From NCBI GenBank assembly GCA_031082005.1, contig JAVHLR010000001.1:191251-255250 (forward strand): a stretch of 64,000 nucleotides of DNA, in the 5' to 3' direction. The position numbers and the translations under genes were made by a program. The DNA is from Patescibacteria group bacterium. Lineage in GTDB: Bacteria > Patescibacteriota > Patescibacteriia > 2-12-FULL-60-25. How positions within the stretch are numbered: position 1 is the first letter of the stretch; every line of letters starts with the position of its first letter. The notes under the pieces are model-generated. The model was not told the origin of the DNA. It ran no database searches and was given only the letters and a program-made list of their open reading frames with translations. Positions 25,505-44,206 of the stretch are shown in pieces.

Positions 25505-25537
25505 TCACGTTTACCTATTATTTCTTTCTTCCCTTTA

Positions 25538-25631
25538 GAACAGGGGATAGGGGCTTTTTCGTCAGCGAGGACCTGTTCGAGGTAGATGAAAACGAGCCCC
25601 GCAGCGACGAAAAAGCCCTTACCCCCTGTTC
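25538..25631. repeat. Composite hairpin element copy 1: 26-nt inverted-repeat arms around a conserved ~42-nt core
   Basis: Left arm GAACAGGGGATAGGGGCTTTTTCGTC, right arm its reverse complement with 2 differences; core AGCGAGGACCTGTTCGAGGTAGATGAAAACGAGCCCCGCAGC. Confidence 0.85.
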
Positions 25632-25641
25632 GTTCCTACCA

Positions 25642-25670
25642 TTGACAAAAACCTTTAATTACGCTATGTT
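25642..25670 (+). promoter_or_regulatory. Sigma-70-like promoter
   Basis: TTGACA - 17 bp - TATGTT upstream of the protein kinase gene. Confidence 0.65.
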
Positions 25671-25718: not shown

Positions 25719-27434
25719 ATGGCTAGCCGTAACAGTCTGCCGTGCGTCATCGAGAGCCGATTGCCCGACAAAGGCGGCCGTAAGCGCGTCCTGCGCTACG
25801 AGCTTCTTTCTGTCCTGGGGCAGGGCGGGATGGCCACGGTTTACCTGGCCAACGACCTAACTCCTCCGGACTGGTACCGCGAAGCCAACGGCGACAAGCC
25901 GCGGCGCGTGGTGCTGAAGTACCCGCATGAGGAGGTTTTGCAGATTTCGGTCGACGCGCTCGACCGCTTCGTCAGGGAGGCCAACCTCCTCAAGTCCGTG
26001 AACCACCCGAACGTGGTGCGGATTTGGAACATGGGTGTGGATCAGGACACTCACCCCTTCATCGTGATGGAGCTGGTTGAGGACGCCCAGAGTCTCGACG
26101 CTCTGAAAGTGAAGTATTGGGAGAATTTCCTGAACGACCAGGGCAAGTCGGAGAACGGCAAGATCGAGCGATCGCTTGTTCCTGTCTCTATGCTTGTTCC
26201 GTTGTTGCGCCAGGTGCTCGACGCGCTTGAGGCGCTGCACGCCAAGAACATCGTGCATCGCGACATCAAGCCCGAGAACATCCTGGTGACGGATCAGGAT
26301 GGCCGAGACGTGGTGAAGCTGACGGACCTGGGGATCTCCAAGAACCTTACTCCGCAGCCCGGGCCAAGTCTCACGAGCCAAGGCGTGATCGTCGGGACGC
26401 CGTATTACATGTCGCCTGAAGCCGCGATGGAATGCAAAATCCATCCGGTGACGCGCGAGACATGGTACGTCGGTCCGTACAGCGATTTTTGGTCTCTCGG
26501 TGCATCGGCTTTCGAGCTCGTCACGGGCTTCCTGCCTTTCGACGCGGACGCCAACGAGTTGCGCAAGCCGACCAACGGAGCGCGTTCGGAGATCATGGCC
26601 GAGCAGCTCATGGCGCGGCTCGTCCTGGCCAAGGTCGTCGACAGCCAGATCGGTCACCGCGACATCAAGGACTTCGTCCATGATCCGAATCCGCATATGG
26701 TCGAGTTCATAGACCTGTGCCTGATCAAGGATCCGTGGGATCGGCCTAAGGACGCGACAGCGTTGCGTAAGCTGCTCGACAAAGCCGAGGAGTGGGAACG
26801 TCGGCACAAACTGCCCTTCTCGTTGCCCGGCAAAAGCACCTCATGGCGCGAAGCCGATTCCCTGGCTCCGACACGCGAACTGGTTTCGAATCCGCCACCA
26901 CAGACTCCGGCAGTATCTTCGGAAGTGACCGGACGCAGTAGGTTGTCCAGGATTAAAGTCGCTTGGGTACCTGTAGCTATCCTGGCGTTCGGGACCCTCG
27001 TGCTGCTGGCCTGGCTGTTCGATCTGCATGGGCGGTTCTATGACTCACGACCTGCGCTTCAGGATTCAGCAGCCGCATCGGGTTCGTTCCTGTCATCTAC
27101 AGCTCCGCCAGTCGCTTCGACAGTTTCACCAGCCACCGCTACGGCTTCAGCCAAGCGCACGCCAGGATCTGGGCCGGAGCCAGGCTCTCGTGCCTATGGA
27201 ATCTACCGGAGTGGCGTGTCCGCTTACGCGGCTGGGAATTGCTCCCAGGCCAAACGCTTCATGAACGGGGTCTTGGCGGTCCATCCGTCGTTCCCTCCGG
27301 CCATGAAGGTTCTGGGCGAGTGCGCGTTGCGCGGCAAGCGCTTCGACGAAGCTCGGCAGTATCTTGAGCTGTACCAGTCGTTCGACGGCGTCGAGCCATT
27401 GTCGGCTGAAGCGCAGAAGTTCCTGGCCCGGTAG
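25719..27434 (+). CDS. Transmembrane Ser/Thr protein kinase with C-terminal TPR-like region
   Basis: LGQGGMATVYLA, NIVHRDIKPENILV, LTDLGIS, GTPYYMSPEA; TM VAILAFGTLVLLAWLF; C-terminal SAYAAGNCSQAKRFMNGVLAVHPSF. Confidence 0.93.
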   Translation: MASRNSLPCVIESRLPDKGGRKRVLRYELLSVLGQGGMATVYLANDLTPPDWYREANGDKPRRVVLKYPHEEVLQISVDALDRFVREANLLKSVNHPNVVRIWNMGVDQDTHPFIVMELVEDAQSLDALKVKYWENFLNDQGKSENGKIERSLVPVSMLVPLLRQVLDALEALHAKNIVHRDIKPENILVTDQDGRDVVKLTDLGISKNLTPQPGPSLTSQGVIVGTPYYMSPEAAMECKIHPVTRETWYVGPYSDFWSLGASAFELVTGFLPFDADANELRKPTNGARSEIMAEQLMARLVLAKVVDSQIGHRDIKDFVHDPNPHMVEFIDLCLIKDPWDRPKDATALRKLLDKAEEWERRHKLPFSLPGKSTSWREADSLAPTRELVSNPPPQTPAVSSEVTGRSRLSRIKVAWVPVAILAFGTLVLLAWLFDLHGRFYDSRPALQDSAAASGSFLSSTAPPVASTVSPATATASAKRTPGSGPEPGSRAYGIYRSGVSAYAAGNCSQAKRFMNGVLAVHPSFPPAMKVLGECALRGKRFDEARQYLELYQSFDGVEPLSAEAQKFLAR

Positions 27435-43967: not shown

Positions 43968-44032
43968 GACAAAAGAACCCCTATCGGAGTTCTTTTGAAT
44001 ATCTGCCTCTTCCATTTTTTCTCCTTTTTTCA

Positions 44033-44122
44033 GCTGGGATGTGAGGCGTATTCTTAGCCGAGGATGTGTTCGAGGTAGACTGGCGCGAGCCCCGCAGGCA
44101 AGAATACGCCTCACATCCCAGC
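44033..44122. repeat. Composite hairpin element copy 2: perfect 23-nt inverted-repeat arms around a conserved ~44-nt core
   Basis: GCTGGGATGTGAGGCGTATTCTT / AAGAATACGCCTCACATCCCAGC; core AGCCGAGGATGTGTTCGAGGTAGACTGGCGCGAGCCCCGCAGGC. Confidence 0.9.
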
Positions 44123-44206
44123 GCCCCTCCCTTTACATTTTCGCCGTTCATGCTAATCTCGAGCCTGCCCTTTGCAGAGCCTTGACCAACAGGAGAGTTT
44201 ACAATC

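Follow-up and report, generated by a model that had tools for sequence, protein, structure and literature searches.

REPINs, the REP doublets that RAYTs mobilize, are short, dispersed, intergenic hairpins with conserved blocks and a paired region that compensates. Compensatory changes are seen in these hairpins, their length and pairing both matter, and single-stranded DNA intermediates have been proposed for them (PMC3116915). Rickettsia palindromic elements (RPEs) are about 100–150 bp long and can sit in frame in protein genes; nearly half of those in R. conorii are located within ORFs (PMC10969869). IS200/IS605 elements are recognized as hairpins and target the lagging strand, in which they have a biased orientation (PMC6006769). 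Template switching creates and repairs hairpins, and it can account for perfect co-varying stems without selection on RNA (PMC8794818).

Here, we explored two hairpins in a window of 64,000 nt, which is the whole stretch of DNA that was analyzed, together with their source genome (G000; 1.3 Mb, assembled in seven contigs). We found that they belong to a family of about 95-bp palindromic, probably mobile DNA elements, in which the centre is conserved and every copy has arms of its own. The literature was searched by sequence and by subject and no published account of the element was found; the family is previously undescribed. REPINs, RPEs and IS200/IS605 are closest to it in kind, and each of them has a defining feature that is lacking or was not seen here. 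Unlike in REPINs, the conserved block is central and the variable paired region lies outside it, with outer arms whose identity is at chance level or close to it; no RAYT was found in G000, and the orientation of the elements is locked to one replication strand. The elements are palindromic, as RPEs are; a single copy among about 30 lies within a gene, in frame, and the arms are private to each copy. With IS200/IS605 they share the lagging-strand orientation and, as we infer, recognition as a hairpin, but no Y1 transposase is linked to them, no autonomous copy encoding TnpA was found with these ends, and they have no apparent left/right-end architecture or guide sequences. They are short, non-coding and dispersed, and their copy number varies among relatives, as is expected of a MITE. 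However, they have no terminal inverted repeats that are conserved across copies; the arms are private in the genus of G000, and some copies in the genome G278 have end sequences in common. Integron attC sites are likewise recognized as folded single strands and have variable stems. Our elements, in contrast, are dispersed singly, with no integrase-linked array and no attC core-site consensus that could be seen by eye. Template-switch hairpins are the product of a mutational process and not a mobile family, and that process leaves the common core unexplained.

A preliminary description of the window had placed two hairpins at 25538–25631 (copy 1) and 44033–44122 (copy 2), and both coordinates and description held exactly. 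All of their features are on the + strand. In copy 1, the left arm of 26 nt (25538–25563) is 92% complementary to its inverted-repeat partner (25606–25631), and the core CGAGGACCTGTTCGAGGTAGATGAAAACGAGCCCCGCAG lies between them (25566–25604). In copy 2, the arms (44033–44055 and 44100–44122) are 23 nt long and 100% complementary, and they enclose the core CGAGGATGTGTTCGAGGTAGACTGGCGCGAGCCCCGCAG (44059–44097). Both cores are of subtype 1 and were found by the core pattern and by the covariance model. The left flanks are polypyrimidine tracts, at 25518–25537 (pyrimidine 0.90 across 20 nt) and at 44010–44031 (0.95). To the right of copy 1 is a promoter-like site (25642–25670) in which TTGACA (25642–25647) is followed after 17 nt by TATGTT, and its −35 box is 37 nt from the core end. 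This site is upstream of a protein-kinase gene at 25719 (Pkinase domain). The promoter-like site of copy 2 (TTTACA ... TAATCT, 44132–44159) has its −35 box 34 nt from the core end. Copy 1 had been said to lie between a terminator-like hairpin and a promoter, and both are present. The core pattern matched twice in the window (0 matches expected from shuffles), the arms of the two copies are the top two inverted repeats of the window, and the hairpin z-scores of the copies were −6.2 to −8.0 on either strand.

The strict core pattern found 21 copies in G000, 20 of which are on one strand. A covariance model trained on 15 copies raised the count to 30, with 29 of them on the + strand of contig C3. 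One asymmetric two-strand motif is common to all, CGAGGA-(N)TGTYTGA...GAGYYCCGCAG, with a variable centre between its parts. Core subtype 1 is CGAGGA(TG/CC)TGTTCGAG-R-TAGACTGAAACGAGCCCCGCAG, and subtype 2 is CGAGGACTGTYTGAG-(variable inner stem)-CGAGTTCCGCAG. A similar hairpin at 1040351–1040438 of C3 has a divergent core, CGAGGATCTTTTCACCCCAGCCAAGCTGGACGAATACCACAGC, which may represent a third core type. Across the 420 kb of DNA that was sampled, a core is present in almost every long hairpin (arms of 19 nt or more), and the coreless remainder consists of simple repeats and of terminator-like hairpins with short loops.

Of 57 related genomes, 16 (G000 included) carried the family according to the structure model of subtype 2, with 1 to 26 copies each, and no copies were detected in the other 41. 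Copy numbers were 26–30 in G000, 13 in G003, and 10–12 in G029, G046 and G054. The strict pattern was found in 5 of 380 genomes across the phylum (G000 included), with other families among them, and genome sizes are 0.4–2 Mb, which would fit the Patescibacteria suggested in the preliminary description. In the G278 and f44 genomes, the core also occurs inside longer palindromes of about 130–150 bp. Several G278 copies have common end sequences, CATTAAAGCAAWCAG ... TTTGCGTCCATG, and lie on both strands; a search with this conserved end pattern as written gave no match. In IMG/VR the subtype 1 pattern had no match, and neither did copy 1 DNA in phages. The subtype 2 pattern matched two putative viral contigs in IMG/VR, which suggests a wider host range. 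Their cores (L190:9041–9080 and L191:1283–1318) have partly complementary flanks, and the L190 element had no match in phage or plasmid collections.

The arms are about 26 bp long, a length that is near-fixed. In 15 aligned copies, 24 of the 26 arm pairs have changes on both sides, with 95.8% of cells paired and an arm covariation score of 0.82 vs. 0.17 in shuffles. The main conserved feature of the arms is a T-rich or A-rich run 6–10 nt from the core. Farther than about 10 nt from the core, the arms of different copies are no more alike than by chance in G000, G003 and G046, and slightly more alike than that in G029. Siblings with outer arms more similar than under the null were found for one pair in G029 and for none of the copies in G000. 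The tandem copies 440161/440052 are alike in their inner arms and not in their outer arms. The proposal that one core is combined with unrelated, self-complementary arms is true genome-wide for most copies, in which the flanks are mutually complementary and dissimilar from copy to copy; in about 10 of 50 (hand count), the core is intact and the arms are degraded. The preliminary description had named a known Rfam family, or other copies lacking self-complementary flanks, as evidence against it. Most other copies have such flanks, and no real match was found in Rfam at gathering or relaxed thresholds, the sub-threshold ones being mostly microRNA models.

Two young sister pairs (in G042 and G029) have arms that are alike along much of their length. 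All of their differing arm pairs are compensated (5/5 and 5/5), transversions included, and 0 arm changes are one-sided. In an orthologous pair of G000 and G003, 2 arm differences are compensated and 5 are one-sided. Mismatches in good arms, read on the element strand, are G.T in 19 cases vs. A.C in 5 (p-value ~ 0.003). The preliminary description took self-complementary arms as a sign of selection on structure. Complementarity at birth followed by homogenization through template switching would give the same pattern, and some copies have lost their arms from an intact core. Because template switching both makes and mends such stems, perfect co-varying arms are not alone proof of structural selection.

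The orientation of the elements was compared with the replication strands. The excess of one strand in G000 (29 of 30 copies) has a two-sided p-value of ~ 6 × 10−8. Three copies are in the first half of C3 and 27 in the second. In the second half (620000–1241385), the + strand has a GC skew of about −0.14 and most genes lie on the − strand; the elements are on +, that is, on the C-rich strand, inferred to be the lagging one from GC skew alone. Since GC skew is about 0 in the first half (C3 1–620000), the three copies there say little on the strand rule. In G003, the asymmetry of GC skew and elements is mirrored relative to C3. Of 20 stretches sampled from G001, G003, G029 and G046, 19 had the element on the C-rich strand (p-value ~ 2 × 10−5 if independent, although some stretches come from one contig and are partly non-independent). 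The two known exceptions to the rule are 821606 in G000 and 178098 in contig C8 of G001. Orientation is independent of genes: the + strand carries the copies that adjoin + genes, the copy within the + gene prmC, and the copies that separate divergent genes. The inverted pair 821606/822974 was considered as a composite transposon and rejected; the enclosed 298-aa gene is lipoprotein-like by eye and not transposase-like, and the orthologous site in G003 has a decayed element.

A Y1/RAYT gene (PF01797) was not found in G000, whose seven-contig assembly could miss a copy, and the matches in other genomes never adjoin cores. Four contig ends of G001 (L092, L097, L099, L100) carry Y1 transposase fragments. 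A repeated IS200-like element probably breaks the G001 assembly, and a similar copy could be absent from the G000 assembly.

All copies in G000 except the one in prmC are intergenic. Where a gene on the opposite strand lies to the right, its stop codon usually marks the end of the right arm. The uniform-placement estimate for this abutment was about 1 × 10−13 in 12 hand-picked nearest-stop cases, a value that overstates the significance because ORF calling was greedy and the cases were picked after inspection. In 14 of 15 pattern hits from two genomes, a −35-like box begins 34–40 nt past the core end; one of these 14 is a TTGACA in prmC coding DNA, and the fifteenth hit has TTGAC inside another element. 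Most copies have a polypyrimidine tract as left flank, and only 2.2% of background 20-mers have a pyrimidine fraction of at least 0.8. The intragenic copy is located in prmC/hemK (L078:7026–8087; C3 ~1033025–1034086), in the linker before the methyltransferase motif. It is in frame, and the PrmC_N and methyltransferase domains are still recognizable. In G003, the prmC orthologue is without the element and bears another short palindrome, CTCCCCTTAAGCTAAGGGGAG, at this position.

The genomes of G000 and G003 are largely collinear, in reversed order. Three sites common to both have conserved arms, and at about six sites the two have an element at the same place and in the same orientation, with unrelated arms and sometimes a different core subtype. 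Tandem clusters have their intact copy at the right end in about ten cases (hand count; one tie, one exception), with the decayed ones to its left. These clusters and the reoccupied sites point to repeated renewal at one boundary, through either site preference or retained function. A search for empty sites in G003 gave no clean, precise junction; the flanks align, and the sites hold other elements, decayed remnants or unalignable DNA. No single uninverted arm was found at these orthologous sites. Dispersed palindromes of G003, CTCCCCTTA..TAAGGGGAG and GTCATTCCCGCG..CGGGAATCCAG, occupy sites of the element in G000.

Our preferred reading, held with middling confidence, is that the elements are non-autonomous miniature mobile DNA similar to MITEs and REPINs; mobility and mechanism are deduced here from sequence comparison. 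At the replication fork, the core would fold into a hairpin of single-stranded DNA. A putative trans-acting enzyme would recognize the folded core, which would be the part that it requires, and would insert the element in one orientation beside C-rich tracts. The arms of young copies may be perfect through template switching (quasi-palindrome correction), which would rewrite one arm from the other. Arm sequence could then drift or be replaced with no loss of pairing until the copy dies, after which the arms would decay. We favour non-autonomous mobile hairpins because copy number is variable, orientation follows the replication strand, arms decay, and one insertion is in frame. The compensated sister pairs, the copies with lost arms and perfect cores, and the clusters with an intact rightmost copy support the same reading. 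Against it are the results that no transposase or other mobilizing enzyme was found, with no transposase as a neighbour, and that no clean empty site with an insertion junction was seen. Many orthologous sites are occupied in the same orientation in two species, which demands a strong site preference or a retained function. The excess of G.T over A.C could also be a sign of selection on a hairpin that is transcribed or single-stranded, and core conservation could itself reflect host function.

Host function is the main rival, and we consider it somewhat unlikely. It takes the hairpin as a host-selected structural element at gene boundaries, namely a structured RNA, an mRNA 3'-end hairpin or a protein-bound DNA hairpin, with the core as ligand or protein site and arms that merely need to pair. 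The two-sided changes in 24 of 26 arm pairs and the 19 vs. 5 mismatch excess on one strand accord with it, as do right edges set by opposite-strand stop codons, with −35 boxes 34–40 nt away, and orthologous sites that retain an intact copy despite different arms or even core subtypes. However, the family was undetected in most relatives and is variable in number, a U-tract is absent on both sides, and the arms are sometimes gone while the core persists. One copy is in frame in prmC. Orientation is set by the replication strand even beside genes of opposite direction and between divergent genes, so that the element has no uniform position in transcripts. Of the three options in the preliminary description, the self-propagating structured repeat is best supported; the host ncRNA is disfavoured by patchy copy number, by orientation that follows replication and not transcription, and by the in-frame insertion in prmC. 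A further explanation, and a very unlikely one, is that the elements are long intrinsic terminators, or that they are insulators whose loop binds a protein. They often directly follow stop codons and form strong hairpins on both strands, but no poly-U is found past the stem in either orientation, a separate ordinary terminator lies upstream of copy 1, and copies also occur between divergent promoters under a strand rule that tracks replication.

The arms may instead be made afresh at each insertion into single-stranded DNA of the replication fork, so that only the core is transmitted and about 26 nt of the target are duplicated in inverted form through snap-back or template-switch synthesis. 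The termini of such an element would be made by template switching and not copied from a donor. The near-fixed arm length, the private outer arms in G000, the chance identity beyond about 10 bp (near chance in G029), and the tandem copies that differ in outer arms all agree with this. The common arms of the G042 and G029 sister pairs mean that some arms are inherited, and no empty site has a single uninverted arm; we regard this explanation as quite improbable. The remaining option of the preliminary description, a recombinase or IS end, found no support. Although hairpin architecture and lagging-strand orientation are similar (PMC6006769), it is extremely unlikely that the elements are IS200/IS605 ends or REP ends linked to a RAYT, given that PF01797 has no match in G000 and is not adjacent to cores elsewhere, and that the conserved part is internal while the arms vary.

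As non-autonomous mobile hairpins, these elements would add a lineage of small genomes, for which experimental tools are few, to those known to have miniature mobile hairpins, and they would do so with an inside-out design. Their strict replication-strand orientation would be a natural readout of fork direction. The sister copies could be used to test whether selection or template switching keeps stems perfect, which bears on hairpin evolution in general.
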